Source of the DNA: Lycium barbarum
Taxonomy: Eukaryota; Streptophyta; Magnoliopsida; Solanales; Solanaceae
Direction of reading: 5' to 3'
Assembly: GCF_019175385.1 (NCBI RefSeq)
Contig: NC_083343.1
Span: 47,824,457 to 47,888,456, forward strand
DNA: 64,000 bases
This document shows, one piece after another, positions 1,617-45,334 of this stretch. Numbering within the stretch: position 1 is the first letter of the stretch; each line of letters starts with the position of its first letter. The translations under genes were made by a program, and so were the position numbers. The notes beneath the pieces are model-generated. The model was given only the letters and a program-made list of their open reading frames with translations. It was not told the origin of the DNA and made no database searches.

Positions 1617-1658
1617 AGTTCGCCCTAGGAAGTGTCTACGAGCCGTGTCTAGTAGAGT

Positions 1659-1697
1659 CTTGTTTATGGTGTGTTGCGCGCCACACTAATAAACAAG
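1659..1697 (+). other. Leader hairpin with palindromic loop (candidate dimer-initiation site), element A
   Basis: Lower stem CTTGTTTAT (1659-1667) pairs with ATAAACAAG (1689-1697). Upper stem GTGTG (1669-1673) pairs with CACAC (1682-1686). The 8-nt loop is TT plus the palindrome GCGCGC (1676-1681). Three related elements in this window keep the same design with different stem and loop bases. The form resembles retroviral kissing-loop dimerisation hairpins; function is inferred. Confidence 0.7.
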
Positions 1698-1805
1698 AGG
1701 CTACAGGGCATTTAGGAAAATGACCATCTTTCTTCCCATGAGATCGTGCGATAGAGCCATGTCTAGGATTATATCATTCCTAAAAGTGCGTTATGGTTTC
1801 AGAAA

Positions 1806-3124
1806 ATGCCGCCGAAAGGAAAAGCTACAGCTGCCCAGAAAGGCAAAGCTTCGACAAAGAGGCAGGCGGAAAGAGAGCCTCCGACAAATGTAGAGGAAAG
1901 TGAATCGCAAAGTGAGGCCGTGCCCAATGTAGAAGAGCAGGGAGGAGCCTCAGCTCCGATTCCTCCACCGGATGCTTCGGTCAACAAGTGTCCGAGGCCA
2001 TACATTTATTGACGCAGTTGGTTGCCGCTCAGGCACAACGACAGAATGCGGGCCCAAGTGATCGTTCAACTAGTACAAGAGCCCGTGATTTCCTTACTCT
2101 AAATCCTCCAGAATTTTTCGGGTCGAAGCCGGATGAGGACCCACAAGGTTTTATCGATGAAATGCTGAGGACGCTAACACTTATGCATGCTTCTGAGACT
2201 GAATCTGTAGAGTTAGCCTCATATAGACATCGCGACGTGGCGGTACTATGGTATAAGAATTGGGTGATAACAAGAGGGGAGAATGCACCACCTCCCGTGT
2301 GGCAAGAGTTTGTAGATGCCTTTATTCGTCACTACTTGCCACCTGAAGTCCGCCGAGCACAAGCGGATAGGTTCTTGAATTTGAAACAAGGAAGCATGAG
2401 TGCCCGAGAGTATAGTATGCAATTCAACTCATTGGGCCGGTATGCTCCGACTATGGTGGCTGAGATGGGGGACCGAGTCTATAGATTTGTGAGTGGTTTA
2501 GGACCACACTTGTTCAGAGATTGCATGACAGCCTCTTTGCAAGACGGGATGGATATTTCCCGGATACAGGCCCATGCTCAGAACCTCGAGGAACGACAAC
2601 GACAGCAGAGAAGTGATCGTGAGGGTGACAGAAGACAAGGTAAGAGGGCTAGATCTATGGGGGAGAGCAGTGAGTACCGAGGGGGACCGAGACAGACATA
2701 TTCTAGGCACTCAGGTCAGTCAGTGACTAGTGCACCTCATAGATTCTCAGATAGGAGGGTTGACCATTTTTTTCAGTCAGGCCAGGGGCAGAGTTCGAGG
2801 GCCTCAGATTCGCAGTCTAGGGGAGACTTTAGCCAGAGGAGACCTCCAGTACCGCGGTGTATCCAGTGTGGCAAACTACATTCCAGACAGTGTCGTCAGG
2901 GTTCGGATGCTTGTTATGCTTGCGGGCAAGTCGGTCACATGATGAGAGATTGCCCCTCAGCGAGAGATAGAGCTGGGACTCAGCCTACAGGTTCAGCAGC
3001 GGGTTCTTCTTCAGCACGCCCAACAACACAGACTCCTCAGACTACAGCAGGTAGGGGCAGAGGTAGAGGGGGAGCATCTACTTCAGGTGCTGTTCAGCCC
3101 CGTGTGTATGCTTTAGCTGGGCGA
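1806..3124 (+). pseudogene. gag of element A (frameshifted)
   Basis: Gag is the capsid/nucleocapsid polyprotein that assembles the virus-like particle. The frame opens at 1806 (MPPKGKATAAQKGKA, the same opening style as gag of element D) and runs about 60 codons. It then shifts frame near 1980-1990, where QQVSEAIHLLTQLVAAQ lies in a different frame. The second frame continues to 3124 and holds the retrotransposon gag core (VELASYRHRDVAVLWYKNW; FLNLKQGSMSAREY) and, near its end, a CCHC zinc knuckle (CYACGQVGHMMRDC) followed by an Arg/Gly-rich tail. One indel therefore breaks an otherwise intact gag. The TAG at 3125-3127 separates it from pol. Confidence 0.9.
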
Positions 3125-6100
3125 TAGGATCTTGAGTCTTCCCTAGATGTTGTCACAGGTACCTTGACTATATTTTTTCGTGACGTATATGCTCTGATTG
3201 ATCCAGGTTCTACCTTCTCATATATTACTCCGTATATCGCTGATTGTGTTGGGGTAAGACCTGAGCCAAGTAAACCTTTCGAGGTATTCACTCCGGTTGG
3301 TGATCCTGTAATAGAGAGACAAGTATATCAGAACTGTGTAGTCATTATAGGTGATCGTCAGACAAGGGCTGATCTAATTGAACTTGAGATGATAGATTTT
3401 GACGTAATTATGGGTATGGACTGGTTAGCATCATGCTATGCTAATGTTTGTTGCCGGACAAAGGTAGTTCGATTCCAATTTCCGGGAGAGCCCATACTCG
3501 AGTGGAAGGGTAATACCGTTTCCCCAAAGGGTAGGTTTATTTCCTACCTTAAGGTGAGAAAGATGATAGCCAAGGGTTATATTTGTCATCTAGTTCGGGT
3601 TCATGACACGGAAGCGCAAATACCAACTTTCCAGTCTGTCCCGGTAGTGAATGAATTCCCAGATGTGTTTCCCGATGAGTTACCAGGCCTTCCTCCAGAA
3701 AGGGAGATCGACTTTGCTATTGATGTACTACCAGACACCGAGCCTATTTCTATTCCTCCATATCGAATGGCTCCAGCAGAACTGAAAGAGCTGAAAGCAC
3801 AACTAAAAGATTTACTTGAGAAGGGGTTTATAAGGCCTAGTTCCTCGCCATGGGGAGCACCAGTCCTGTTCGTAAGGAAGAAAGACGGATCTCTGCGAAT
3901 GTGCATCGACTACAGGCAGTTGAACAAGGTGACAATAAAGAATAAATACCCTCTTCCTAGAATTGACGACTTGTTCGATCAATTGCAAGGTGCTAAATGG
4001 TTCTCCAAGATAGATCTGAGATCGGGTTATCATCAGGTGAGAATTAGGGAAGCAGATATTCCCAAGACCGCCTTCAGGACAAGATATGGTCACTACGAGT
4101 TTCGAGTAATGTCGTTCGAGTTGACGAATGCCCCGGCGGTATTCATGAATTTAATGAATAATGTGTTCAGGCCGTTTTTGGATCTCTTTGTGATAGTGTT
4201 CATCGACGATATTTTGGTGTACTCTCGCACAGAGTTAGAACATGCAGATCATCTAAGAATTGTTCTTGGTGTTCTTCGAGATCGGGAATCGTATGCAAAG
4301 TTTTCGAAGTGCGAGTTTTGGCTAAACTCAGTGGAATTTCTAGGTCATGTTATTTCAGATAATGGTATCCGAGTCGACACTCAGAAAATAGAAGCTGTGA
4401 AGACTTGGCCAAGACCTACGACGCCTACAGAAGTTCGTAGTTTCCTTGGGTTAGCAGGATACTATAGAAGATTTGTAGAGGGCTTCTCATCTATTTCAGC
4501 CCCATTGACAAAGTTAACCCAGAAGTCGGCTAAATTCCAGTGGAGTGATGCCTGTGAGCGTAGCTTCCAAGAGCTGAAAAACAGGTTGACCTCAACGCCG
4601 GTGCTAACACTTCTAGAAGGATCAGATGGCTATGTAGTGTATTGTGACGCCTCCGGTGTGGGATTAGGATGTGTATTGATGCAGAATGGGAAAGTTATTG
4701 CATATGCTTCGAGACAGTTGCGAAAACATGAACAGAATTACCCCACTCATGATCTTGAGCTAGCTGCGGTCATTCATGCATTGAAAATATGGAGACACTA
4801 CTTATATGGTGTGCACGTGGACATCTATACGGATCACAAAAGCCTTCAATATATTTTCAAACAGAAGGAGTTGAACCTGCGGCAAAGGAGATGGTTAGAA
4901 TTACTGAAGGATTATGATGTGAACATTCTATATCATCCAGGGAAGGCGAATGTAGTAGCAGATGCACTTAGCCGCCGATCGATGGGTAGTTTATGTGGAG
5001 TTCCTTCGGAAAAGCGAGAAATGGTTCGTGAAGTCCATCAGTTAGCAAGTCTCGGCGTACAGCCCATTGATTCAGGAGATGCAGGTATTAGCGTCAATGA
5101 CCCCACAGTTTCATCATTGAATCTAGAAGTGAAGGAACGGCAATATGAAGATCCTCAGTTAAGCCACTATCGAGATCTATCTCAGGAAAAGGAAGAGTCT
5201 CCATTCGAAGTTTCCATAGAAGGGGTTCTTAGATATCGAGGCCGGCTATGTGTACCGAATGTGGCAAACTTGCGCCAACGGATTTTAGAGGAAGCACATT
5301 ATTCCCGGTATTCTATTCATCCAGGTGCAACCGAGATGTACCATGATCTCAAATTGGTATACTGGTGGGATGGCATGAAGCGAGACATAGCAGAATTTTT
5401 AGCACAGTGTCCAAATTGCCAGTAAGTGAAGGTCGAGCATCAAAAGCCAGGAGGGTTATTGCAAGCAATGGAAATTCCTACGTGGAAATGAGAAGAAATT
5501 AACATGGATTTTGTGGTAGGATTACCCCGTACGCGAGGGAAGTATGATTCTATATGGGTGATCGTGGATAGACTCACGAAAGCAGCTCATTTTCTCCCCG
5601 TTAGAACCACATATTCAGCGGAGGATTATGCTAAATTGTATCTCAAGGAGATTGTACGACTTCACGGTATTCCTTTGGCCATTATCACAGACAGAGGGGC
5701 ACAGTTCACAGCCAAGTTCTGGAAGTCCTTCCAAGAAGGTCTAGGTACCCAAGTTAAGCTCAGCACGGCGTTCCATCCGCAGACTGACGGACAAGCCGAG
5801 CGCACTATTCAGACCTTAGAGGATATGCTACGGGCATGTGTATTGGACTTTGGCGGTAATTGGGATGAGCATTTGACTCTTATTGAATTTGCCTATAATA
5901 ACAGCTATCATTCCAGCATTCAAATGGCCCCGTATGAAGCCTTATATGGAAGAAAATGCAGATCTCCAATTGGATGGTTTGAAACCGGAGAAGTACAATT
6001 GATAGGCCCCGACTTGATCCAACAAGCAGTTGAAAAGGTTAAAGTGATTCGAGACCGACTGTTAACAGCTCAAAGTCGCCAAAAGTCTTATGCAGATAAT

Positions 6101-6580
6101 CGCCGACGAGATTTGGAATTTCAAGTGGGCGATTGGGTGTTCCTGAAGGTATCGCCGATGAAGGGAGTGATGAGATTTGGCAAGAAGGGAAAGCTAAGTC
6201 CCAGATATATCAGACCCTACCAAATCATTCGCAAGGTGAGTCGAGTAGCCTATAAATTGGACTTGCCTTCAGAGCTCGAATCCGTGCATCCAGTATTCCA
6301 TGTTTCGATGCTCCGTAATTGTATTGGAGACCCAACAAGAATAGTTCCGGTTGATGATGTGCAAGTAACAGAGAAGCTAACATACGGGGAAATGCCCATT
6401 GCCATTTTGGATAGACAAGTACGAAGGCTTCGGAATAAAGAGGTTGCTTCAGTCAAAGTTCTATGGCGGAACAATAATCGGGAAGAAATGACTTGGGAAG
6501 CGGAGGAGAAGATGAAATCTATGTACCCCCATTTGTTCCAATCCCCAGAAGATATTCAAGATGAGACGTCGATGGTGTAA
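3125..6580 (+). pseudogene. pol of element A: protease, RT, RNase H, integrase, chromodomain (three stops)
   Basis: In frame with the second gag frame but interrupted by TAG at 3125-3127 (a Gln codon in the relatives), TAA at 5423-5425 and a TGA near 5489 (Trp in element B). Domains in order: aspartic protease (ALIDPGST, Asp near 3200); reverse transcriptase with FIDD at 4199-4210, the YxDD-type catalytic site; RNase H (VYCDASG, TDHKSLQ); integrase HHCC zinc region (ending CPNCQ at the second stop); DDE core (VDRLTKAAHF, ITDRGAQFT, Glu in DGQAERTIQTLE); and a C-terminal chromodomain (PIAILDRQVRRLRNK...MTWEAE). The usual FGLTNAPAAF segment of RT reads [10 protein letters not shown] here, an added missense change beside the active site. 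The chromodomain is presumed to direct integration into heterochromatin. Confidence 0.93.
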
Positions 6581-8999: not shown

Positions 9000-9297
9000 C
9001 CATGCTAATGAAATAGGAAACATACCTTTCAATTGAATGACTTTAATTCAAAGCAATTCTCTCGTAGTGACAAAATTAACTGCTTGTTCGTGATCAAAGC
9101 ATTCGGTCAGAATCCGGGATGTCTTATCCTATGATTTAGCTCTACGGCACGATCTAAGATAAGAAAGAAGGTCAATTGTTCCTAAATGCCCTGCAGCCTC
9201 TTGTTTATAAGTGTGGCGCGCTTCACACCCATAAACAAGACTCTACTGGATAAGACTTAGCAGACAACCCCTAGGACGACCTGCTCTGATACCAACT
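9000..9297 (-). mobile_element. Leader of B-rev (minus strand) with primer-binding site and palindromic-loop hairpin
   Basis: Reads as an untranslated leader on the minus strand. The primer-binding site complement is GCTCTGATACCA at 9283-9294. The leader hairpin lies at 9200-9239, with outer stem CTTGTTTAT/ATAAACAAG, inner stem GTGTG/CACAC and loop AA plus the palindrome GCGCGC (9216-9221). The gag and pol that should lie further left are absent; the sequence joins the truncated 3' LTR of element A at about 9000. A deletion or rearrangement across two oppositely oriented elements is the simplest explanation. Confidence 0.82.
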
Positions 9298-16900: not shown

Positions 16901-18879
16901 TGTAACGACCCGTTTGGTCGTTATAGTCTTTTCGGCATTTTCGCCCGTTCCCGAGCATTGATTAGTTCACTTTTGACCCGAGGGGACCATTGGCATGCTT
17001 CCCTAAGTGTCTAGACCGGATTCGGGCAACTTTTGTGAAATATAGGCTTAAAGTGAAAAATAGTTGACCCAAAGTTGACTTTTGGGTAAACGAATCTTTT
17101 TCGGAATTCCGTCGATTCCGATAGGTCCGGATGGTCGTTTAAAACTTGTGGGTGTAATTGGTTTAGTTCCCAATGCACTCGGATGCATTTCGGGACTTGG
17201 GTTGGGAAATTGGAATTAAGGCATCGGGAGTTGACTCGGTCAACGAGGCCTCCGTTGAAAATTTCGAGGCCACGAGCGTGTTCGTAGTGTAATTTTGTAT
17301 GGGTTTGTGTGTATGGTTTGTGAGCAGATGGCCTTGTGAATGACCCGGGATTCCGATTGAAGACTTAGAAAAATATGGGGGATTCTAGTACCTGGTACCC
17401 GCAATGGCGGCACCAGTGCCGTCCCAGTGGCACCGCTGTTGTGGTATGTTGGCCGCTGGGGAGGCCATGTGTATTGCTGGCCATGCCGCTATGGCGGTCT
17501 TGAGGGCAGTGTAGCGGCGCCGCTACCGTCGTGGCGGTGACGGGTCAGGTAATTTCATTAAGTGTGATTTAAATAAGCCTTAGACCCTCATTATTTCCCA
17601 TTTCGAAATTAGAGCTTTGGGGAACAGTTCTTGGAGATATTTTGGAGACATTCTTGGAGGTAAATCTTGCCTAATCCTTTACTCTTCCTTAATCACAATC
17701 ATCTTAGATTTCCCCTTCCCTTTAACAATCCCTTAGTGATGGAATTTGAAGGAGGGTTTTGATGAACTTTTCCTTAGGCTCATGTATGAGGAAATTGATG
17801 ATGTTTATGTTAGATTTTGACTTATCCAAGCTTATTAATCATATATCTTCCACTTTTAGCGTTGAATTTCGGAATCGAAGACTTAGGGTTTATACCCAAT
17901 TTTAGGGTTTTGCTTGAAATCAGAAATTAGGCTAATATTTGAGTTAAATTAGCAATTAGTGGTTAGGTTATGATCACCTCGTACTTAATTTGGCATTTTG
18001 CTTCGGAATTTCCCATTTTGTCCTTGTGGGCCCTTTTCCCCAATTTATAGGGCTAGAGTTGACCTAATTTGAATATTAGCAATATTAGGATCATTCTTCA
18101 TGATTTCTAATCTAGAATTCGATCATGCTTAGACTACTTTGGTTTTGAGGTTCAGCGGCAAGGCAAGGCAAAGGAGTGAGTTGTTGGTGCTACGGTTCGG
18201 CCATCCAGGTAGGTTATGGCTTACCTTTGGTGAGACTTCGTATAGCGAAGCGCATATTTAGATTATATTATCGAAGACAGCATGTCAACCTTCGGGTATG
18301 AAGTCGGGTTGGATATTGCCTTAGGTTGCGCCCTGTTGTGTGTTGGGACTAGACACCCCGTTGTGTTGTGTTTGATTGTTTTACTGTGTTGGCTTGACGC
18401 CGCGAGTTGTTGATAGATATTGGATTCTGTTTATCGTCTTGATTATGATTTAGTTGGCATATATATTGTTGGCATACCCACTGTTGGTACTTGTGATTCG
18501 GTTATATTATTGGCATACCCACTGTTGGTATTTGTGATTCGAATATATTATTGGCGTACCCACTGTTGCTACTTATGATATTGAGCATGATTACACACTC
18601 TCATTTTCATGATACATTGTTGTGGCATTGATGACACTGACGAAACACTTGATGAGCTCGGCTCAGTTTTACTTGAGTGATGTGAGACTCCGATGTCTGA
18701 TGTTCATCCTGGAATCGTTGATTGAGTGAAATTGATATTTGAGAGAACTTTTTTACTTAAGTGACGTGAGAATCCGATGTCCGATATTCCTCCCGGAATC
18801 GTGGATTGCATGGCCGATATCCGATGTTATTTTCGGAATTGTTGTTAGTGCATGGACTCCGCGGGTCCCCCAGGGTGGT
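16901..18879 (+). repeat. 5' LTR of element C, first part
   Basis: Begins TGTAACGACCCG, as does the LTR at 61959. Interrupted after 18879 by element D, whose 5-base target GTGGT is 18875-18879. It contains a GC-rich palindrome cluster, a TATA-like TTTAAATAAG (17568-17577) and tandem GGCATACCCACTGTTGGTA repeats (18455-18575). Confidence 0.9.
17396..17545 (+). repeat. GC-rich cluster of GGCGG/CCGCC short palindromes in element C U3
   Basis: Repeated GCCGCTATGGCGG-type and GGCGCCGCTACC motifs in both orientations, directly upstream of the TATA-like box. The equivalent LTR at 62140-62280 has the same kind of cluster with different exact repeats. Confidence 0.65.
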
Positions 18880-21800
18880 TGTCACGACCCAAACCCCGTG
18901 GGCCGCGACTGGTACCCTAACTGGGTACCCATACGTACCTACCCGACCGAAATCGAATCATACAGATTTTTTTTTTTTTTTTTTAAAACAGAAGTACAGA
19001 AATAGGCCGGTACAAATACGGCACGCACGCTAGCATACATATATATACGTACATATACCTGAACACACAGACATTTACAAGTAAGCCGATAAGGCTAACA
19101 TACAGACGAAACCCGTAACCCACACATCTATCTACAGGCCTCTACAGACATACAGAATCATATGACGGGACAGGGCCCCGCCGTACCCAGAATATACAGA
19201 CATGCGGAGTACACAAAGACAGAAGGTATATACCAAAGATATATGCTCCGAGTCAAAGGAGCTCTTCAAGTAGCAGAGTCGGAAACCTACGCGGGCGGCG
19301 TATCACCTGGTGCGTCTGTACCTGCGGGCATGTAGCGCAGCCCCCGACGAACGGGGGTCAGTACGAAAAATGTACCGAGTATGTAAAGCAGAAACGTAAC
19401 AGATATAAACATAGTCCGAACTAGAATCACAGAAATATAACGGGCAAAATCATAAGTCAAACTAACGGACAGAGTTATGATCCAGACAGACATACAGAAT
19501 CGTGTTACACACAAATGAACAGAATTATAGTTCGGACAGACAGACGGAGTCATAATACGGACAGACGAGCAGAATCTGAATCCATACGGACATACAGAAG
19601 CAGAAGCCATACGGACATACAGAAATAGTTGTAACACAGACGGACAGACAGTAGTATGACGGACAGAATTATGCATGCAGAGTAGCACAGAGTCATACAA
19701 AATCATACAAAGGCGTGTGCTTTATAAATACAGATGGCACACGCATATATTCATACAGATCCCGGCCCTGTCTGGGGGCGCGGTAACAGAACCCGGCCCT
19801 CTTAGTACGGGACGCGGTGGACAGACAGAATCAAATCAGATCATATGCCATCCTGGCCGCCATCCCCATACACAGATCATACAGACATACAGATCCCGAC
19901 CCGTACGCCGAGGGACGCGGTGAACAATGCAGAGAAATATGCACGATAACAGAACCTGGCCCGGGTCGCAGTGAAAGAATGCATTGAGACAGACACGAAT
20001 CGATAAATGAGAAACCACCTACCTACAGACTCAACATACAGACTCGATCAATCAGAAGGGTGCCAAACGGCGAGCCAAAATCAGAATATCCAGATGGTAT
20101 GCATAGTACGCGCCTATATTCTAGTTGTGAAGGCACGACAGATTATGATCAGAATCAGATATCCAGATGCTCAGAAATCATTTGTATAAAATGCACAAAA
20201 TATACTTATCATACACAAAATAATAGTTCAGAAGTTTTTAGAGAAAATCGGACCAAAATGGAAGTAATTAAAATCGTATCGGGAGTATCGGGCCTTGTGG
20301 GCCCGCCTCGGACCAACTCGAGGTTATGTACGTAAATTACTGATGTTTGACCTTATGAGGTCACCCATACTCGTTCGGGAGTGTTCCGACTCCGTTTGGG
20401 GAAGTTTTGTACAAAATCTCACTTTAAGGCAATTTGTAAGAAAATAGGTTCAATTGAATTGAAGGAATTGGAGCGGTTTTCCGTCTCGAATTCCGGGGAA
20501 CGGAGTCGGACCTAAGGCTCGCGGCCGAGCCTACCACATCCAGAACATGCCTAGGAACGTAGAGAAGTGCTTCACATACCTCGATGGCGCCTTATGCTCG
20601 CTCGGCGTCAATCCAAATTTCGTCCAAAATCTGGAAATGGTCAAGTTTACCATTTGGTTAGTTCCACTCTTTCAATATTCTAACTTTACACATAATTGCC
20701 TACCGAAATTTCGGCAGCATTTCCTCTGTATATACGACATCCCCGAGACTTGGCTCGGCTTAATTTATCAACACAACAACCCAAAGATAACATCCAAACA
20801 ACAACAAACATCAATAGATACTAAATCATACACTATGGCATTATTAGCCATCTTTCGACATAACGAAACATCTTTCGTTTCAAACTTACACTTTCAAACC
20901 AAACTTATTATTTTCATATTCATTACCTATCGAAGTAATTCCAACATACGTCGGAGGCATATCTTATCATTTTCACACGATATACAAACATACCAACTTT
21001 CCATTAGAGCCACTACTTATCCAATTTTTCCAACCTTCAACATACAAGTTCATAAACACATTTTTCCATATTCCAAGTTCATCAACAATAATCATGATTC
21101 GTCTCTTGATACATTCATTTCCATTTTTTTTTTTTACATAAACATAACAAAGTTGCATACTTTCCTACAACAACTTGATAACCATTTTTCCAAGACAATA
21201 AAAATTGTTATCTTTCCATTCACTTCACCATAACTCAATTAGCATACAACCAAGATCAAATTCATATTCCATATCAAACCTAGCACCACACGGCCATCTC
21301 CCACACTTCCAATTTTTTTTTTACTAATTCATTCCACTTCCTTTCTAATAAAATTCCCATCATATTACAACTAGCTTACAACAAGAATTCAAGCCATTGA
21401 AATCATGCAATTGCATATACATTTTCGGCCAACACACCCTAAATTCCAACACACAAAATTTCCATGTTTTTCATTCATTCACACATACTACAACATACAT
21501 ATATCATTTTTAGCACAACAAAAGCATGAAATTCTCACCTTTCTTCAAGCCCTTCACTTGGAGATAAAAATTGTTTTCTTGCCACAATATTTATACCAAC
21601 TTGAAGAGGGCCTTGCACTTAGTCATAACCTCACAAGGGATGAATTTTTGAACCCAAGAATTGGCTCCAAAATTTTTTTCTTTCTTTTTCTTTTCTCCTC
21701 TTTCTCACCCGAAATGGCTCCTCTTTTTTTTTTGTTCTTGGCTTTTGTTTTGTTTCTTGAACCTTCTCAATACTTATCAATACATATATAATTCCCCATG

Positions 21801-22083
21801 GAATTTAATTATTCCATGGGCTTGGACTCCTTTGGCCGGTTGGGCCCCCTTAAGTTGGGCCTTTCTCCACTTATTTTTTTTGAACCCAAAATGGCTAGAT
21901 TTTGCAATTTATGGAACAAGTTCCCAAAATTCCAATTTTTGCCCTTGGCCACCTTTCGTAATTCTTATACCATTGACTTCATAACTCACACATTCACACC
22001 AAGTAGTGTCCAATTGTGGCCTTATTCATCAAAAGTCCATTTATCTTGAATTTTTCGAATAAACAAAAATGTCAGATGTAACA
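18880..22083 (-). repeat. 3' LTR of element D
   Basis: On the plus strand it runs from TGTCACGACCC to GATGTAACA, and the polypurine tract complement follows at 22084. Many frames of 60 to 228 codons in this LTR recur identically in the other copy; they lack similarity to known domains and are not called as genes. Confidence 0.97.
19322..19385 (-). other. LTR hairpins H3/H4 and GTACTGAC block (element D, 3' LTR)
   Basis: H4 arms CTGCG (19322-19326) and CGCAG (19336-19340). H3 arms CCCCCG (19341-19346) and CGGGGG (19352-19357). GTACTGAC motif on the minus strand follows. The identical copy in the 5' LTR is at 25586-25649. Confidence 0.68.
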
Positions 22084-22119
22084 TTCTTCCCCCCTTTAGA
22101 ACATTCGTCCTCGAATGTT
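22084..22119 (-). promoter_or_regulatory. Polypurine tract and inverted repeat, element D
   Basis: Minus-strand purine run complementary to TTCTTCCCCCCTTT beside the LTR, next to the perfect inverted repeat AACATTCG (22100-22107) and CGAATGTT (22112-22119). Same design as element A at 6749-6786. Confidence 0.88.
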
Positions 22120-23154
22120 AAATTGACCTTATGGGGCGCCATACCACTCCGGGAGGGTTCTCTTTATAGTCGTCCTTTGCTGATTTTCCGACATGGCTGC
22201 TATGCCAACATTATGGGGTAATTTTTCACATCACCGATTTAAATGCCTTCATAATATATCTTCTCGTACCCCACGCAATCGTCGAACCATAAGCTATATT
22301 CTTGTAACCGACGAACGTTTCCTAAACATCATAGTCCACCTCATTTCCTATTACACTCCTGAATTCCTACCGCATTTTCGTAATCCCACTTCATACCAGA
22401 CACTTCTTACCAACAGATTCAGGACTGGGATCGGACACGTCGAAGCATATCGGACGGATTCGTAATCGGAAGCAGACATGTTAAACTCTGGCGGATGGAT
22501 TCATAATCAAAAGAAGAGATACAGAAATATGTCAGACAGATCTAAGATCAGAGTCAGATGTATAAAAATGTATCGGACGGATTTCGAAATCGGAATCAGG
22601 CTTACAGAAATGTATCATACAGAGTCACACTTAGAATCAGACATGCGGAGATGTATCAGACAGATGCGTGACCAAAATTAGACGTACGGAGGCACACCAG
22701 ACGGATTTATATCCAGAGTCAGACATACAGAGGTGTGTCAGACAGATTCGTAATCAGGGTTAATCGTACAGAGATATGTCAGACAGAAACATATTCAGAA
22801 TCAATCATACAAATCGTCTTGGGTGTCGCTTATCGACTTTTTCAAGGATTCTGCTTATTTGCCCTTCTTATCTCTCTTCTTCCCTACCATCCATACACTC
22901 TTTCTTTTTACAACCATCGTTATACCAGACTAACTTATGAGGTAATTGGGCTTTCTCTATCCCCTGACAACATTCGGGTCGTCGCTAACTATTATCCAGA
23001 TTCGCTCAATTTTCCGAGCGGTATCGCACCTTTTCTTTTTGCCCATTTAATCCGCGTCGGACTGTGTGATTTTTGTAAAGGCTCTGATTACTCCACACAT
23101 TCTCCTTCAACTTTAGATTACCCCAAATTTTCATTTATATCAGTCATACCTACA
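22120..23154 (-). other. Non-coding interior of element D with tandem repeats
   Basis: No pol similarity in any frame. Positions about 22425-22815 hold roughly seven degenerate repeats of about 50 to 60 bases, each with a CAGACGGATTC / AATCAGAGTCAGACATAC / AGAGATGTATC pattern. The remainder is T- and C-rich on the plus strand. This segment takes the place of pol and may act as filler or carry packaging signals. Confidence 0.7.
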
Positions 23155-23285
23155 CTTGTGCAAAACTCTGCATTCCTTCCCAGGGGGTCACCCATCCCAG
23201 AATTGCTCTGGCCTGAGCACGCTTAACTCCGAAACTTTCATGCATTTCGACGCGTTAGGACGGATATAGTTTCGTCGATCGCCCC
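23155..23285 (-). ncRNA. 5S rRNA-derived segment inside element D
   Basis: On the minus strand this reads as a diverged plant 5S rRNA over its full length. The start is GGGGCGATC (23285 downward). The A-box region is GGAGTTAAGCGTGCTCAGG and the C-box region is GGGATGGGTGACC then CCTGGGAAG, ending near TTTTGCAC at about 23155. The best half (23175-23245) matches the 5S consensus, recalled from memory, at roughly three of four positions, with the internal promoter best kept. The 5' half is more diverged. Same strand as gag. Cassandra TRIM retrotransposons also carry 5S-derived sequence, but in their LTRs; here it is internal, between gag and polypurine tract. Unlikely to be a working rRNA gene. 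Confidence 0.75.
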
Positions 23286-23507
23286 GTACGACCTTTGTCA
23301 CGTAATTTTAGAGCAAATCGGGGTCTTCGCAAATTTTCGGAAAAATTTTGGTAGCGGGTCCCACCCCCGGCTAAGTCATACCATTACCATATTGCTTTTC
23401 TGAATCTCGGTATCCACCAAATTAACATTTATCTTACTATTTCTAGTACCCAGAAGTATGAGATCACGTGATTCAACAAAATACAAAATTATCCATACAT
23501 ACACTTC
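23286..23507 (-). other. Non-coding spacer between 5S-like segment and gag of element D
   Basis: Two hundred bases with phrases such as AAATCGGGGTCTTCGC and GTAGCGGGTCCCACCC but no frame or domain. It is the 3' untranslated part downstream of the gag stop. Confidence 0.55.
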
Positions 23508-24938
23508 TCAAAAAGGATTGGCTGGCGTACCTGGGCGTGCACTCGAAGACGCTCCTGGATCCTGCCGGCCGGTTAAAGCAAACACGCGGTTCGAAGGACC
23601 GCTGTAACCAGAAGCTGCACCTCGTCCTCTGCCACGACCCGCTGGCGCTGGTGCTGGTGCTGGTGCTCCTCGCCCCGCAGGGCGCATGGCTGCTGAAGGA
23701 GAAGATGAGCCTGCAACGGACCCAGCAGGCCGGGCTGAACCCGAACTGCCCTTAAGTGGGCACTCTCTGACTCGATGGTCTGGGCTCCCACAAAAATAAC
23801 AAGCGCCCGTAGCGCGGTAGCACTCCCCCGGGTGGGATCTCCCACAGTAAGAACACGGGGGTATGGGTGGCCTCGACTGACCGGGACCTCTGGAGCTCTG
23901 TCCTGCGAACTGTGGGGGCGTACTGTAGGCTGGCTGGGACGAGTACCTGTTACCCTGCCGCTGGGAAGGCTCGCCCTGGAACCCCTCTGAATACCCAGCC
24001 GATCTGGCCCTCTTAGGCCGGCCCCTGTCGTAACTCCTATCAGGCCGACGTTCCCTACGTCGGTCCTCCATGCCCTGGGCGTGTGCCTGTACCCGGGCTA
24101 CATGCATCCCTGGCTGAGCAGCCACGGCCAAACAACCATCAATCAGATAAGAGTCCAGTCCCATCACATACCTGTGCACCCTGTCGGCCATCTCAGCTAC
24201 TATGGTGGGTGCATACCTAGCCAGTGAATCGAACTCTAGGCTGTACTCGCGAACACTTCTACCATTCTGCCTCAAATTCAAGAACCGATCAACCCTAGCT
24301 CTTCGTAGCTCTGGTGGTAGAAAATGGTCCAGAAAGGCCTTAGTAAATTCGGCCCATACTGCTGCGGGCGCATCGGCACCCCTGGAGAGCTGCCAAGACT
24401 CATACCAATTTGCTGCCACCTCATACAATCGATACGAAGCCAACTCCACAGACTCAGTCGGCGAAGCCTTAATCAATCGCAGTGTGCTCTCCATCTTTCT
24501 GATGAACTCCTGGGGGTCCTCCTCAGATTTTGTCCCGGAGAATTCTGGAGGACTACATGTCAAAAACTCACGAGCCCTGGAGCTCTCATACCTGTCCGCA
24601 CGACCACCCCCAAATCCATGCCTGCGAACCTGTTCCGCCATTAGTGTGGTTAATAACTGAACCGCATCTCGCATGGCCCTACTTTCCGCCCCTGCCGGTG
24701 GAGCTGGAGGCTCGGGCGCTGGAACCTCAGGAGCTTGCGGTGGAGCCGTCTCCCGATTAGCAGCCCCTGCTGTTCTGATATCCTCTCGCGAAGGGGGTGT
24801 AACAGACCCAGACGACGGGGGCACATCCTCAAGTGCAGGCTGAACACTGGCCCTGGTAACCCTCGGGGCCTGGCTAGTCTCTCCTGCTTCAATCCTCGCC
24901 TTGCCCTTCTGGGCGGCTGTTGCCTTCCTCGGAGGCAT
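23508..24938 (-). CDS. gag of element D (intact, gag-only)
   Basis: A 476-codon uninterrupted gag starting MPPRKATAAQKGKARIEAG at 24938, the same opening as element A gag, which supports this start. An acidic/Pro-rich N-terminal region is followed by the retrotransposon gag core (ESRAMRDAVQLLTTLMAEQ; SVELASYRLYEVAANWYESW; FLNLRQNGRSVREYSLEFD). A cysteine/histidine region follows, with CSYCGRSHPGEC and the CCHC knuckle CYFCGSPDHRVREC, then a Gly/Arg/Ala/Pro-rich RNA-binding tail. It ends after FALTGRQDPGASSSARPGTP, which is where relatives continue into protease (LAGWQDLESSPDVV in B). The frame thus stops at the gag/protease border. Probably encodes a functional capsid/nucleocapsid; expression is unknown. 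Codon use is GC-richer than the neighbouring decayed gags, consistent with recent origin. Confidence 0.93.
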   Translation of the reverse strand: MPPRKATAAQKGKARIEAGETSQAPRVTRASVQPALEDVPPSSGSVTPPSREDIRTAGAANRETAPPQAPEVPAPEPPAPPAGAESRAMRDAVQLLTTLMAEQVRRHGFGGGRADRYESSRAREFLTCSPPEFSGTKSEEDPQEFIRKMESTLRLIKASPTESVELASYRLYEVAANWYESWQLSRGADAPAAVWAEFTKAFLDHFLPPELRRARVDRFLNLRQNGRSVREYSLEFDSLARYAPTIVAEMADRVHRYVMGLDSYLIDGCLAVAAQPGMHVARVQAHAQGMEDRRRERRPDRSYDRGRPKRARSAGYSEGFQGEPSQRQGNRYSSQPAYSTPPQFAGQSSRGPGQSRPPIPPCSYCGRSHPGECYRATGACYFCGSPDHRVRECPLKGSSGSARPAGSVAGSSSPSAAMRPAGRGAPAPAPAPAGRGRGRGAASGYSGPSNRVFALTGRQDPGASSSARPGTPANPF

Positions 24939-25045
24939 TGCTGAAACATAGCAGATCGTTAGGAGAGGATCATCCTACTAATACGGTTCTATCGCACGAT
25001 CTAAGAATCCAAAGAAGGGTAACATCCTAAATGCCCTGTAGTTTC

Positions 25046-25084
25046 CTGTTTATAGATGTGGTGCACAACACATCGATAAACAAG
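25046..25084 (-). other. Leader hairpin with palindromic loop (candidate dimer-initiation site), element D
   Basis: Minus-strand stem CTTGTTTAT with ATAAACAGG (one G-U pair), inner stem GATGTG with CACATC, and an 8-nt loop TT plus the palindrome GTGCAC (25061-25066 on the plus strand). Both stem and palindrome differ from element A (GTGTG/CACAC; GCGCGC) yet the form is the same. Confidence 0.72.
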
Positions 25085-25125
25085 ACTCTACTAGACACGG
25101 CCTGTAGACATACCGAGGACTAACC

Positions 25126-25137
25126 GCTCTGATACCA
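25126..25137 (-). promoter_or_regulatory. Primer-binding site, element D
   Basis: GCTCTGATACCA on the plus strand, complement of TGGTATCAGAGC, four bases from the LTR end at 25142. Initiator Met tRNA type, as in the related elements. Confidence 0.93.
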
Positions 25138-25141
25138 CTTT

Positions 25142-28100
25142 TGTCACGACCCAAACCCCGTGGGCCGCGACTGGTACCCTAACTGGGTACCCATACGTAC
25201 CTACCCGACCGAAATCGAATCATACAGATTTTTTTTTTTTTTTTTTTTAAAACAGAAGTACAGAAATAGGCCGGTACAAATACGGCACGCACGCTAGCAT
25301 ACATATATATACGTACATATACCTGAACACACAGACATTTACAAGTAAGCCGATAAGGCTAACATACAGACGAAACCCGTAACCCACACATCTATCTACA
25401 GGCCTCTACAGACATACAGAATCATATGACGGGACAGGGCCCCGCCGTACCCAGAATATACAGACATGCGGAGTACACAAAGACAGAAGGTATATACCAA
25501 AGATATATGCTCCGAGTCAAAGGAGCTCTTCAAGTAGCAGAGTCGGAAACCTACGCGGGCGGCGTATCACCTGGTGCGTCTGTACCTGCGGGCATGTAGC
25601 GCAGCCCCCGACGAACGGGGGTCAGTACGAAAAATGTACCGAGTATGTAAAGCAGAAACGTAACAGATATAAACATAGTCCGAACTAGAATCACAGAAAT
25701 ATAACGGGCAAAATCATAAGTCAAACTAACGGACAGAGTTATGATCCAGACAGACATACAGAATCGTGTTACACACAAATGAACAGAATTATAGTTCGGA
25801 CAGACAGACGGAGTCATAATACGGACAGACGAGCAGAATCTGAATCCATACGGACATACAGAAGCAGAAGCCATACGGACATACAGAAATAGTTGTAACA
25901 CAGACGGACAGACAGTAGTATGACGGACAGAATTATGCATGCAGAGTAGCACAGAGTCATACAAAATCATACAAAGGCGTGTGCTTTATAAATACAGATG
26001 GCACACGCATATATTCATACAGATCCCGGCCCTGTCTGGGGGCGCGGTAACAGAACCCGGCCCTCTTAGTACGGGACGCGGTGGACAGACAGAATCAAAT
26101 CAGATCATATGCCATCCTGGCCGCCATCCCCATACACAGATCATACAGACATACAGATCCCGACCCGTACGCCGAGGGACGCGGTGAACAATGCAGAGAA
26201 ATATGCACGATAACAGAACCTGGCCCGGGTCGCAGTGAAAGAATGCATTGAGACAGACACGAATCGATAAATGAGAAACCACCTACCTACAGACTCAACA
26301 TACAGACTCGATCAATCAGAAGGGTGCCAAACGGCGAGCCAAAATCAGAATATCCAGATGGTATGCATAGTACGCGCCTATATTCTAGTTGTGAAGGCAC
26401 GACAGATTATGATCAGAATCAGATATCCAGATGCTCAGAAATCATTTGTATAAAATGCACAAAATATACTTATCATACACAAAATAATAGTTCAGAAGTT
26501 TTTAGAGAAAATCGGACCAAAATGGAAGTAATTAAAATCGTATCGGGAGTATCGGGCCTTGTGGGCCCGCCTCGGACCAACTCGAGGTTATGTACGTAAA
26601 TTACTGATGTTTGACCTTATGAGGTCACCCATACTCGTTCGGGAGTGTTCCGACTCCGTTTGGGGAAGTTTTGTACAAAATCTCACTTTAAGGCAATTTG
26701 TAAGAAAATAGGTTCAATTGAATTGAAGGAATTGGAGCGGTTTTCCGTCTCGAATTCCGGGGAACGGAGTCGGACCTAAGGCTCGCGGCCGAGCCTACCA
26801 CATCCAGAACATGCCTAGGAACGTAGAGAAGTGCTTCACATACCTCGATGGCGCCTTATGCTCGCTCGGCGTCAATCCAAATTTCGTCCAAAATCTGGAA
26901 ATGGTCAAGTTTACCATTTGGTTAGTTCCACTCTTTCAATATTCTAACTTTACACATAATTGCCTACCGAAATTTCGGCAGCATTTCCTCTGTATATACG
27001 ACATCCCCGAGACTTGGCTCGGCTTAATTTATCAACACAACAACCCAAAGATAACATCCAAACAACAACAAACATCAATAGATACTAAATCATACACTAT
27101 GGCATTATTAGCCATCTTTCGACATAACGAAACATCTTTCGTTTCAAACTTACACTTTCAAACCAAACTTATTATTTTCATATTCATTACCTATCGAAGT
27201 AATTCCAACATACGTCGGAGGCATATCTTATCATTTTCACACGATATACAAACATACCAACTTTCCATTAGAGCCACTACTTATCCAATTTTTCCAACCT
27301 TCAACATACAAGTTCATAAACACATTTTTCCATATTCCAAGTTCATCAACAATAATCATGATTCGTCTCTTGATACATTCATTTCCATTTTTTTTTTTTA
27401 CATAAACATAACAAAGTTGCATACTTTCCTACAACAACTTGATAACCATTTTTCCAAGACAATAAAAATTGTTATCTTTCCATTCACTTCACCATAACTC
27501 AATTAGCATACAACCAAGATCAAATTCATATTCCATATCAAACCTAGCACCACACGGCCATCTCCCACACTTCCAATTTTTTTTTTACTAATTCATTCCA
27601 CTTCCTTTCTAATAAAATTCCCATCATATTACAACTAGCTTACAACAAGAATTCAAGCCATTGAAATCATGCAATTGCATATACATTTTCGGCCAACACA
27701 CCCTAAATTCCAACACACAAAATTTCCATGTTTTTCATTCATTCACACATACTACAACATACATATATCATTTTTAGCACAACAAAAGCATGAAATTCTC
27801 ACCTTTCTTCAAGCCCTTCACTTGGAGATAAAAATTGTTTTCTTGCCACAATATTTATACCAACTTGAAGAGGGCCTTGCACTTAGTCATAACCTCACAA
27901 GGGATGAATTTTTGAACCCAAGAATTGGCTCCAAAATTTTTTTCTTTCTTTTTCTTTTCTCCTCTTTCTCACCCGAAATGGCTCCTCTTTTTTTTTTGTT
28001 CTTGGCTTTTGTTTTGTTTCTTGAACCTTCTCAATACTTATCAATACATATATAATTCCCCATGGAATTTAATTATTCCATGGGCTTGGACTCCTTTGGC

Positions 28101-28347
28101 CGGTTGGGCCCCCTTAAGTTGGGCCTTTCTCCACTTATTTTTTTTGAACCCAAAATGGCTAGATTTTGCAATTTATGGAACAAGTTCCCAAAATTCCAAT
28201 TTTTGCCCTTGGCCACCTTTCGTAATTCTTATACCATTGACTTCATAACTCACACATTCACACCAAGTAGTGTCCAATTGTGGCCTTATTCATCAAAAGT
28301 CCATTTATCTTGAATTTTTCGAATAAACAAAAATGTCAGATGTAACA
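25142..28347 (-). repeat. 5' LTR of element D
   Basis: Starts TGTCACGACCC beside the primer-binding site and ends GATGTAACA at 28347, followed by the target copy GTGGT. Appears identical to 18880-22083 apart from two extra T in a poly-T run. Confidence 0.97.
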
Positions 28348-29242: not shown

Positions 29243-29328
29243 TGGTATCAGAGCCCTAGGTTAACCGGTCTTTAATAAAATAGCGTGTCTAGTAGAGTCT
29301 CATGGATCGGTACGATGACCTCCGTACT
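29243..29328 (+). promoter_or_regulatory. Primer-binding site and leader hairpin, element C
   Basis: TGGTATCAGAGC at 29243-29254. The leader keeps the phrase GTGTCTAGTAGAGTCT and a hairpin GTACG (29310-29314) / CGTAC (29323-29327) with an 8-base loop whose last six bases GACCTC are not palindromic. It is one base from GAGCTC, perhaps a decayed loop. Confidence 0.7.
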
Positions 29329-29452
29329 TATCTACGGGAGGCTATAGGACATTTAGGAAATCTCACTTTCTTTTCATTCTTCATGCTACTTTATTCAATT
29401 TGGTATCTAGAAGGATCAAATTGGTATCTGACTCTCTTCTCTTTTCTCACAG

Positions 29453-29785
29453 ATGGCGAGGACTCGAGCTACGATAGCCCGAGGTCAGGTGCCAGAGCTC
29501 GCAGCTACGGCTGGCACCCGAGGGCGCACTCTAGCCAGGGGACGCGGCAGAGTGAGAGGCCGTGGGGCTGCCCTAGCTAGGGGCAGAGCTCCTACGATGG
29601 GACAGCGGCGAGAGAGGTCTCCATCTCCCGAGCCCAAGTATCAGCCGGGTAGAGACCAGGCCGCAGAGGATGGTGTGACCCCAGCACGAACAAAGACTGA
29701 GGTTACTTCTGACCAGGCTGTGCATGACACTATGGCCAGGATTCGACTTCACCTTGATGCCCAGTAGGCGGCTGCCGGTGTTACT
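29453..29785 (+). pseudogene. gag of element C, N-terminal part
   Basis: Opens MARTRATIARGQVPELAATA with an Arg/Gly/Ala-rich start, differing from the MPPKGK/MPPRK start of elements A and D. A TAG at 29765-29767 follows HLDAQ, then element B interrupts at 29785. Continues at 41133. Confidence 0.8.
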
Positions 29786-31233: not shown

Positions 31234-31433
31234 TGGTATCAGAGCAGTTCAGTCCTAGGGATGTCCATGAGCCATGTCCAATAGAGTCCTGGTTATCGAT
31301 ATGTCATGCACCATATCTATAGCTAGGAGGCTACAGGACATTTAGGAAGATGCTTTTCTTCATGATCTAGATCGTGCGATAGAGCCAAGTTAAGAATACA
31401 ACTATCTAATCCTTCCGTGTTTAATTTTCAGCA
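31234..31433 (+). promoter_or_regulatory. Primer-binding site and leader of element B
   Basis: TGGTATCAGAGC at 31234-31245. Leader hairpin: inner stem GATATG (31298-31303) with CATATC (31312-31317), 8-nt loop TC plus ATGCAC, one base from the palindrome GTGCAC of element D. The outer stem is partly decayed. The following CTACAGGACATTTAGGAAGA and GATCGTGCGATAGAGCC phrases are shared with A and D. Confidence 0.75.
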
Positions 31434-32540
31434 ATACCTCTGAGGAAGAGGAAAGTCAGTAGTATATTGGGCACTGCTGGGGAAGGCCCGAGCCGAGTAC
31501 CGCCACCTGAGTTAGGGCATAGCGAGGCTCAGAGCGCTACCCCCTCGCATGCTAATTCTACTCCGTCAGGTCCAGAAGAGCAAGATAGGGCTCCAGACCC
31601 TCCGGCTCCTCAGCCTCTAGCTCCTCACCCCGCTGCTACAGAACAGGACTTGCGAGACGCAGTCCAGTTATTGACTAGATTGGTGACTGCTCAAACTCAG
31701 CGGCAGGCTGGCCTTCCGGATAGAGCTGTTAGTTCCCGTGTACGTGATTTTTATACCTTGGACCCTCCGGTGTTCACGGGGACAAACCCGAAGGATGACC
31801 CTCAGAATTTTATAGATCGAATGGGCCGCGCTTTGAGGGTAATGCATGCTTCTGACACAGAATCAGTGGAGCTAGCTTCTCATAGACTGTGGGATGTGGC
31901 CACGGTATGGTATAAGTCTTGGCAACAATCGAGGGGGCCGAACACACCTCCAGCAGTATGGTCGGAATTCACCAGAGCCTTTCTGGATCATTATCTGCTC
32001 GCTGAGGTTCGCAGAGCTAGAGCTGATGAATTTCTATTGCTTCGCCAGAATAATATGAGCGTTCGGGAATATAGTTTTAAGTTTAACTCTTTGGCTAGAT
32101 ACGCCCCGACGATGGTAGCTGAAATGGAAGATAGGGTACATCGTTTTGTGACAGGACTTGGGCCTCACTTGATTAAGAATTGTATGACGGCTTCATTACA
32201 GAGTGGTATGGATATTGCTCGTTTTCAGGCATACGCTTAAAATTTGGAGAACCTTGAACGCCGACAGCGTACTGAGCAAGACCCGAGTAGGGGCAGTTAT
32301 AAGCGGGCCAGGTCCGCAGGTTATTCAGGTGCTTATCAGGAAGATTATAGGCCCCATTCTTATAGAAGATCAGATCCTTCAGCGGTTAGTGCACCCTCCA
32401 GGTTCCAGAGGCAGCGTTATGACAGACCCACTTATTCTGGACCGAGTCGAAGCTCGAGAGCGTCAGTTCCTTCTTACAGAGGAGAATCTAGTCAGGCAAG
32501 GCCTCCCTTGCCCCGTTGTGACCAGTGCGGTGAAGGCCAC
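31434..32540 (+). pseudogene. gag of element B, first part
   Basis: The expected start codon at 31434-31436 reads ATA (then PLRKRKVSS), so the natural start is lost; the next ATG is at 31467. The gag core is recognisable (DLRDAVQLLTRLVTAQ; VELASHRLWDVATVWYKSW; LLRQNNMSVREYSFKFN). A TAA at 32238-32240 replaces a Gln codon (CAA). The frame then resumes to CDQCGEG, the first part of the cysteine region, where the solo LTR breaks it at 32540. Confidence 0.85.
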
Positions 32541-42852: not shown

Positions 42853-45334
42853 TGTTACACCTCGAAAATTTCCCCGTGAACGTACAGCGAATAGACTAAC
42901 GAAGAATACGAGTATATGATGTTTTAATAAGAAGGGAACGACGTTTGACGACCCTGAGTAAGATTTCAAAGGCAATGGGAACAAGAGATAGGTTATGCTC
43001 CACAATGACTAATCATAGGTTTTGAAAAATGTGAAAAGTTGCAGATTTGCATTTTGGCCCAGTCGGTCATAAAATGAAACACGGACCGTAAAGTGTTATA
43101 CGGCCCGTGAACTACCATGCCGTATTTCAACATACAAAACTTCAACTTTCTGTCAAATGTTCAAATGGTTAATTACGACTTGGAATACGGACCGTAAATC
43201 GAAATACGGCCCGTAAACCGTGATCGTAAATCACCATGACCTCCAGCATACCTTTCTGGTTCTGTTATGCTTAAATACGACCCGTAAACTGGAATACGGA
43301 CCGTAAACTGGGTTTACGACCACTGTGCACTTCAACTACTGTTCATTCCGGATTAGATTATAAGTCATTAAAAGGAGACCCAAGCTCATTAAATTCATTT
43401 CATTTCCACGATATTTCTCTCTGGAAACCTCTAGAGTACTCTCAACTCTTCATTACAAGAAAATCAAAGGAAATCCATGATCAATAACACCAAATCCATG
43501 AGACAAAGTGTATGAAACCTAGCTAAGGTTCATCTCTCTCAAGAAAACCCAAAGAAAGTGAAGTAGGGTTTTGGTGCTAGAGGAGTAATTCCATTCAAGG
43601 CTTGTTCAACCATCATCTAAGGTAAGTTTCATGACTAAACCATGTTGTTTAAGGTATTGGAAGGTTAAGATACTTGAAATGTAAAAAGACATAGAAAATG
43701 GGCCATTCATGAGTGAATAGTGTCATGGTTGGATGGTAGTTGGGTTGAATCATGAATGTTAGAGTGTTGTGATTATGAATACGTTATAAACGACATTTGG
43801 GCCATGAAATAAGTATTATATATGAGGAAACACGGTAGTAAGCTATAACCACAAATGTGGAGAAATTGAAGAGAAATGGTGGATTGTGGTCAATGTATAT
43901 AAATGATGATTGTTGATTGCAATATTGTGAATGTTGTTGTGAGAGTGTGGGAGTTGATATAGAACATGGGAAAAAGTAGTATAAACAAAGGAAGTGCTGC
44001 CCAATTTTCCCTAGAAATAGTCACGTGTTCTTATAGTTGAATTAACTAACATTAGTGCGAATTCTCTCTTGAAGGTAGAAACGTAATATCGAAGGAGAAC
44101 AAGCAAGCGATAGCTTAGTTAAACGTCAAAGGTATGTGAGGCTAGTCCTTTCTTTCTAATGGCATGAATCTTCTAGCATGATTTTCCTTCCTCTTCATGA
44201 GTTCCTATATTCTGGAAAGCTAAAAGCCTATATCTATGAATGGCAATATAAGATAAGAGATATGATATGATATGATGATTCTATAATGATAATGATGTAA
44301 TTTATTGCTTACACTCACCTTATATGCTACTTCCTTCAAGGTGAGGCAGAATGTCAATAATTACTCCATAATGAAATCGGGGGATCACGACCTTACGTCA
44401 CCCCGATAAAAGTAAAGTTGTTCTTAAGCCTTATACATGTATTATGATAAGTATGTTACGATAAGCATATTATGATGAGCATGTATGATGATGATATAAC
44501 ACCGCGCCTATTTGGCCGGGCAGTCACCGCTAAGGCGGGTAGCTATACGGTACACCATGGCCAAATGGCATGGGCAGACACCACTAGTGGGCGACATGAG
44601 ATGATACCCTGGACGCGGGAGGCCTGGACGCAGGATAACGTTATGATTATCACACCGATCCGATATGGATGGGCAGCTTATATATTACTACACCGCACCT
44701 ATATGGGCGGGCAACTTATACATTATGCATATATGATATGATGGCGAGTATGAGTAAGACAGCATGACCTAATTCTTTTACACTTGACAGTCAGATATAG
44801 ATGTTCCATATTGATATTTCGTTTATGTTATTGTTCTATTTCATTATTTATGCCTCTCATACTCAGTACAATGTTCATACTGACGTCCGTTTTCTTTGGA
44901 CGCTGTGTTTATGCCCACAGGTAGACAGGGAGGAGAGCTCGACCCAGATCCGTAATAGCTGGCAGCTGATTGAAAGCACTCCTTTGTCCCGGAGGTGCTT
45001 GATTATTCTTTTGCGTATATAGTCATGTATATGTATTTTTGGGCATGACGGGGTCTTGTCCCGTCCTTATGTTCAGTACTCCAGTAGAGGCTCGTAGACG
45101 CGCAGTGTGGGTTAGATGGTCTCACGAGATGCTATTATATGTATATATTATTTTGATGGCCGAGAGGCATATGAATATAAAAGTAAGAATGTTTCCATAT
45201 GAAATATGATTTTCTTACCATTTGAGTATAAAAGTTGATAAAAGAGCATTAAATGAGAAAGATGAGTAGTAGAACGAGCGGTGCTCGGTGGCTAGCCCCG
45301 GGTACCCGTCACGGCACCTAGCTGGGTCGTGACA
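42853..45334 (+). mobile_element. Solo LTR (+) of the element A family in element C 3' LTR
   Basis: TGTTACACCTCG to GGTCGTGACA, flanked by ACATA at 42848-42852 and 45335-45339. About 2.48 kb. Clearly the same family as element A LTRs: the U3 palindrome array (43066-43325), TATA-like CATTAAAAGG, H1 44313-44345, H2 CGGGG/CCCCG 44378-44405, H3 GTCC 44885-44888 with GGAC 44898-44901, and H4 CTGTG/CACAG 44903-44920. It is diverged enough to be a separate, older insertion than element A. Confidence 0.93.

Follow-up and report, generated by a model that had tools for sequence, protein, structure and literature searches.

Do the genomic RNAs of plant retrotransposons find each other through a kissing loop, as the RNA of human immunodeficiency virus type 1 (HIV-1) does? 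The question is raised by 64,000 nucleotides (nt) of the 1.67-Gb genome of Lycium barbarum (contig NC_083343.1, positions 47,824,457 to 47,888,456, here called the window), which hold Ty3/gypsy long terminal repeat (LTR) retrotransposons. Such elements account for a large share of many plant genomes, yet the pairing and packaging of their RNA genomes seem to have received little study. An earlier note on this DNA had pointed to a hairpin with a palindromic loop between the primer-binding site (PBS) and gag of several related elements. Our analysis indicates that the hairpin is very probably a kissing-loop dimer-initiation element of plant chromovirus-type Ty3/gypsy genomic RNA, working like stem-loop 1 (SL1) of HIV-1. 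Five leaders in the window carry it:

1645 to 1711, forward strand: leader hairpin of element A, loop TTGCGCGC at 1674-1681, palindrome at 1676-1681; PBS at 1605-1616.
9186 to 9253, reverse strand: leader hairpin of element B-rev, loop AAGCGCGC at 9216-9223, palindrome at 9216-9221; PBS starting at 9294 (reverse strand).
25031 to 25098, reverse strand: leader hairpin of element D, loop TTGTGCAC at 25061-25068, palindrome at 25061-25066; PBS starting at 25137 (reverse strand).
29285 to 29352, forward strand: leader hairpin of element C, loop ATGACCTC at 29315-29322 with two of three symmetric pairs; PBS starting at 29243.
31274 to 31341, forward strand: leader hairpin of element B, loop TCATGCAC at 31304-31311 with two of three symmetric pairs; PBS starting at 31234.

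All five hairpins are 67-68 nt long and lie between the PBS and gag. Counted from the first PBS base, they begin about 40 nt further 3′, and the PBS is a perfect TGGTATCAGAGC in each. The earlier note had placed them correctly relative to PBS and gag, with an extent that covered only their upper part. The positions and loops that it gave for four leaders (TT+GCGCGC in A, AA+GCGCGC in B-rev, TT+GTGCAC in D and TC+ATGCAC in B) were all verified. The 8-nt loop of C is also where it had been noted; there it was called not palindromic, which we correct, as two of its three symmetric pairs are kept. A look-alike of the C leader, recognized by eye (L179), has the perfect palindrome GAGCTC. In the window the loop palindrome is perfect in three of the five leaders (A, B-rev and D).

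From the base upward the hairpin consists of a 6-bp stem (shorter in B-rev), a 1x1 internal loop, 3-4 bp, a 2x2 internal loop, about 10 bp, a 6-bp apical stem and the 8-nt loop. Its folding z-scores range from -2.65 to -5.23 in the five leaders. The whole-leader folds of A and D are not unusual (z of -0.80 and -1.60); only the hairpin stands out. When the five leaders are aligned, 96.9% of pair cells are standard, against at most 55.4% in slid controls, and both sides have changed in eight of the 26 stem pairs. A motif flanking the hairpin on its 3′ side occurs five times in the window at up to three mismatches, where 0.18 occurrences are expected. The window has no Rfam match above the gathering score. 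Searched with our hairpin model (R1), 35 loci from viral and other genome contigs gave no credible match (best E 0.095); 14 of them came from pattern scans of viral contigs and 21 from a scan of genome contigs, another such scan having returned none. The viral contigs also yielded no protein relative, and those of their pattern matches that were folded did not show the hairpin.

To avoid selecting leaders by the hairpin itself, we chose a first set by LTR end and PBS only, with the pattern TGACA-N4-TGGTATCAGAGC. This pattern has 30,637 sites in the genome and none when written backwards. The first 100 sites listed, all on contig C1 between 0.55 and 21.1 Mb, were used, and all 100 leaders were fetched. 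The structure model matched 90 of them (E<=1e-9), and seven more, which we call the third clade, form a related hairpin whose loop has 9 nt, giving 97 of 100. The remaining three (L064, L079 and L120) have no recognizable hairpin; in L064 and L079 the leader seems to have been cut or deleted, and L120 seems to belong to an element of another type. A perfect palindrome fills the last six positions of the 8-nt loop in 78 of the 90 matched leaders, while other 6-base registers, where more than 60 rows have letters, are palindromic in at most 33 of 89 rows. A caller blind to the loop letters found palindromes in 73 of the 100 leaders and in 84 of the 1831 hairpins that it called on 2000 mononucleotide-shuffled leaders. 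It missed or misplaced some loops, so its count is below the 78 plus seven from the model. One 33-nt form of the hairpin has 6,332 exact copies in the genome. Among 28 A-family leaders fetched with a longer PBS pattern the palindrome is perfect in 25, one of them L060.

The loop stays self-complementary while its sequence changes. In the alignment of the 90 leaders (89 distinct rows), 96.3% of the symmetric loop pairs are standard. The second pair is UA in 40 of the 89 rows, CG in 36, AU in six and GC in one; the central pair is GC in 77 and CG in six. Two of the three loop pairs covary, as expected of a dimer-initiation element. Double changes affect 50 loop cells, where the shuffles average 13.9, and none of 500 shuffles reached either this count or the covariation score. 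Taken alone, two covarying loop pairs are nothing special, as 205 of the 500 shuffles also reached that number. The stem, which includes G-U pairs, has changed on both sides in 10 of its 26 pairs, which gives 12 for the whole structure, against 8.0 in shuffles, with 10 of the 500 reaching 12. This larger alignment, which the earlier note had called for, supports its reading of covariation in stem and loop.

A second set was drawn with a narrower pattern, which has 1,869 sites of which 100 were listed, and consists of 52 new leaders mostly from rarer families. Of the 30 loci taken automatically, 18 coincided with first-set places. From the 70 listed places that remained, 40 were fetched, the last 20 of them hand-picked toward less common linkers. 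The model matched 38 of the 52, another 12 belong to the third clade and two (L183 and L210) fit neither. With the five window leaders and L060, this makes 44 model matches beyond the first set. L222, with a loop that reads as 7 nt, was not counted among the loops, and the pool of both sets, L060 and the window leaders holds 133 8-nt loops. Of these, 98 are perfect palindromes, 31 keep two of three pairs, four keep one and none keeps none. The perfect loops read GTGCAC (43), GCGCGC (38), GACGTC (11), GGCGCC (three), GAGCTC (two) and GCCGGC (one, resting on L060, a single leader picked by eye and added after its different loop was seen). The third clade was set apart by eye among the leaders that the model had missed, and a search for the two words TGATCA and TGGCCA identified its palindromes. 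These occur in 15 and three of the 19 third-clade loops, with one having neither; all seven first-set leaders are palindromic (four TGATCA, three TGGCCA), as are 11 of 12 in the second set. Two of the three TGGCCA leaders, L156 and L157, are near-identical neighbours. In all, eight different palindromes occupy the same place in the loop across families, a natural mutagenesis series in one structural frame. Leader L183, left out of these counts, has TAGCCGGC in a hairpin-like place and possibly represents another family with the palindrome GCCGGC.

The composition of the loops is also restricted. Every Watson-Crick central pair of the pooled loops is G-C or C-G (120 of 120), and every Watson-Crick outer pair is G-C (115 of 115). 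The 2x2 internal loop, AG opposite RG, is conserved as well (A62 in 88, G63 in 86 and G108 in 87 of 90 leaders). In HIV-1 SL1 a purine-rich internal loop is bound by nucleocapsid, and the third-clade loop, with two bases before and one after the hexamer, is built like that of HIV-1. According to a review, two central G-C pairs are critical in the HIV-1 kissing complex (PMC5874298). The hexamers GCGCGC and GUGCAC are common to HIV-1 and the elements described here, as the earlier note had recognized, and a further HIV-1 hexamer, GUGCGC, is found in two of the 133 loops (PMC5874298; PMC7357161). Unlike HIV-1 SL1, the main clade has an 8-nt loop with no unpaired base 3′ of the palindrome, which sits directly on the closing pair. 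The flanking purines of SL1 are not conserved here, so the hairpin is not an SL1 in the strict sense. There are also eight palindromes against three in HIV-1; the likeness would be one of function, and we claim no sequence homology. It suggests that an HIV-like solution is used far beyond retroviruses, through descent or convergence. In the GACGTC family (L100, L110, L147, L181, L188, L194 and others), the predicted fold closes the loop to a GACG tetraloop. Such tetraloops are a type of kissing loop in murine leukaemia and sarcoma viruses (PMC7357161).

We infer that the hairpin acts in dimerisation and packaging. Two genomic RNAs would meet loop to loop through six Watson-Crick pairs and form a kissing complex. 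The nucleocapsid part of Gag would bind, perhaps at the conserved purine-rich AG/RG internal loop, and convert this loose complex to a stable dimer, which would be the form that is packaged and copied. Since the hexamer differs between families, RNAs of one family would be expected to pair preferentially with each other. In computed duplex energies the pairing of identical hexamers is the lowest in eight of eight rows, with GTGCAC on GCGCGC coming close (-6.6 against -7.9 and -10.9 kcal/mol). Element D, which is young and gag-only, retains the hairpin with a perfect palindrome, and this fits a cis-acting signal that recently worked with enzymes from another element. It is conceivable, if somewhat doubtful, that the hexamer is a family-specific recognition code of eight mutually mismatched palindromes by which RNAs dimerise, recombine and package mainly with their own kind. 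With such a code, gag-only elements such as D might stay mobile by keeping code and hairpin, a pairing of ideas that we offer just as tentatively. Genome dimerisation in plant retrotransposons becomes directly testable with short RNAs.

Several findings weigh against a kissing-loop dimer-initiation element. The sampled leaders all come from contig C1 of a single species. The youngest, gag-intact element D has a perfect palindrome, while the 8-nt loops of the rarer families in the second set are perfect in only 16 of 37, the other 21 keeping two of three pairs; the blind caller finds palindromes in 19 of the 52 second-set leaders. ATGCAC recurs in five leaders (window element B, L185-L187 and L223), which implies either that perfect self-complementarity is not absolutely required or that only the TGCA core is used there. 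TGATCA of the third clade has central A-U pairs, contrary to the HIV-1 rule. Unlike the conserved purines beside the HIV-1 palindrome, the two bases 5′ of this one are mostly T (position 82 in 72 of the 90 rows, position 83 in 62). A loop-only control slid by -2 columns, covering two pairs, still pairs 90.4% of cells; it has two double-change cells against the 50 of the true register. Many copies are close relatives, which inflates the raw counts, and only the tree and cluster counts address kinship. These two favour the dimer-initiation reading. With the columns of apical stem and loop excluded, a FastTree tree requires at least eight changes at pair 2 and at least three at pair 3, minimum counts among Watson-Crick states that are rough, as some 120 leader columns underlie the tree and branch support was not used. 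The A-pattern leaders other than L060, 27 in number, were left out of this tree. When first-set leaders are clustered by their flanks, the majority loop is palindromic in nine of nine clusters at 20% distance, 20 of 22 at 15% and 39 of 45 at 10%.

Decay may account for part of the imperfect loops. Hairpins with imperfect loops (35) have 2.11 unpaired stem cells of 26, compared with 1.19 in those with perfect loops (98; one-sided p=0.0014). A single C-to-T or G-to-A step separates 23 of the 35 from a palindrome, and within the window the loops are perfect in the younger elements D and A and imperfect in the older B and C. Against a pure decay view, one subfamily with ATGCAC may live with the TGCA core.

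The imperfect loops in 21 of 37 rarer-family leaders could also mean that Gag recognizes the hairpin of a monomeric RNA as its packaging signal, in which the stems and internal loop matter and the palindrome is incidental. The high conservation of stems and AG/RG internal loop and the retention of the hairpin in a gag-only element would suit such a signal. It leaves unexplained why the loop changes symmetrically, with double-change cells far above the shuffle mean and eight palindromes in one place, and we regard it as unlikely.

A control of leader translation or splicing, with the hairpin acting as a scanning block, in a ribosome shunt or within an intron whose removal takes it out of gag mRNA, could coexist with dimerisation. 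The splice-acceptor-like T[TC](N)CAG followed by ATG within 5 nt is present in 72 of 152 leaders, compared with 80 of 3040 shuffles (a comparison uncorrected for kinship), and in B and D a short open reading frame (ORF) ends at the hairpin base. The ATG of this ORF is absent by eye from A, B-rev and C, and such control accounts for a stem while leaving the self-complementary loop unexplained. That it is the main function is very unlikely.

Two features of the leaders bear on their expression. A splice-acceptor-like stretch (pyrimidines followed by CAG) is found at 1797-1808 in A, 24936-24946 in D (reverse strand), 31425-31436 in B and 29445-29455 in C. In A, C and D it directly precedes the start of gag, and in B it stands at the corresponding place; a branch-like CTRAY or similar motif is seen by eye about 20-25 nt upstream. 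The hairpin may lie within an intron, in which case only unspliced RNA would carry it. The short ORF, running from ATG to TAG and ending inside the hairpin base, is at 31261-31284 in B and 25091-25111 in D (reverse strand), an arrangement reminiscent of ribosome-shunt leaders.

That a dimeric host protein such as a transcription factor instead recognizes the palindrome as a symmetric site in double-stranded DNA, or that the palindrome forms a DNA cruciform, is extremely unlikely: six-base palindromes are typical of such sites, and GACGTC resembles a bZIP site, but a protein site would keep one sequence, whereas these palindromes are unrelated and sit on an RNA-type stem that retains G-U pairs. 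Shared ancestry with symmetric methyl-CpG decay of one ancestral palindrome, to which the single-step C-to-T or G-to-A imperfections and the two CpG transitions between GCGCGC and GTGCAC lend some colour, has scarcely any probability left as the sole explanation, as GACGTC, GAGCTC, GGCGCC, GCCGGC, TGATCA and TGGCCA are unreachable from GCGCGC by CpG decay and the tree requires repeated changes at pairs 2 and 3.

A dimer-initiation hairpin would have partial counterparts in other LTR retrotransposons. Ty1 of yeast is a copia-type element. Its SL1a-SL3a interaction is likewise a kissing-loop model for dimerisation of LTR-retrotransposon RNA, with two distinct complementary loops in place of the single self-complementary loop found here (PMC5454406). 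Yeast Ty3, itself of the Ty3/gypsy type, has a palindrome (DS/PAL6, CUGCAG) atop a short hairpin near the 5′ end; its site at nt 391-396 appears in a list of GAG ORF palindromes, outside the leader between PBS and gag, and it is a single palindrome with a sequence other than those of the plant hexamers (PMC11381356). For barley BARE, a plant LTR retrotransposon of the copia type, conserved dimerization and packaging signals are mentioned; covariation was not seen there, and the main text of the paper does not use the words kissing, hairpin or palindrom- (PMC3735527). The string "dimeriz" does not occur in the available text of a 2025 review of host factors of plant LTR retrotransposons (PMC12786077). 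No publication was found with at least two of four leader sequence words. The literature searched had no description of such a hairpin in plant Ty3/gypsy elements, and for plants it mentioned dimerization and packaging signals only in BARE.

The elements that carry the leaders were also examined for their coding regions and ends:

1988 to 6580, forward strand: ORFs of element A for gag, protease-reverse transcriptase-RNase H and integrase with chromodomain.
18879 to 28347, reverse strand: the whole of element D, with LTRs at about 18879-22083 and 25141-28347 that are 99.94% identical.
23508 to 24938, reverse strand: gag ORF of element D, 476 aa, with Retrotrans_gag and a zinc knuckle.

In element A, integrase follows protease, reverse transcriptase and RNase H and carries a chromodomain, as in the plant chromoviruses of the Ty3/gypsy type. 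The Chromo match (E=3.6e-5, 24.1 bits) is slightly below the 25.1-bit cut-off. The clade is tentatively taken to be Tekay/Del. Lycium, Solanum and Nicotiana account for nearly all named relatives of the Gag proteins; one is from Juglans. Very young and gag-only, element D has two 3.2-kb LTRs that flank a 3.06-kb interior with a single gag ORF and no pol match. A 5-bp duplication, GTGGT, was read by eye at its ends. In BLAST pieces the LTRs of A are 97.3% identical, those of B about 95-98% and those of C about 86-93%. By coordinates, D is located in the 5′ LTR of C, and B in the interior of C. An A-like LTR stretch, a solo LTR or a fragment, lies at 43438-45334 within the 3′ LTR of C. At 54336-54702 there is an imperfect array of short repeats, ACACAC plus CCATTTTCTTCC-type units, with no relation to the elements seen.
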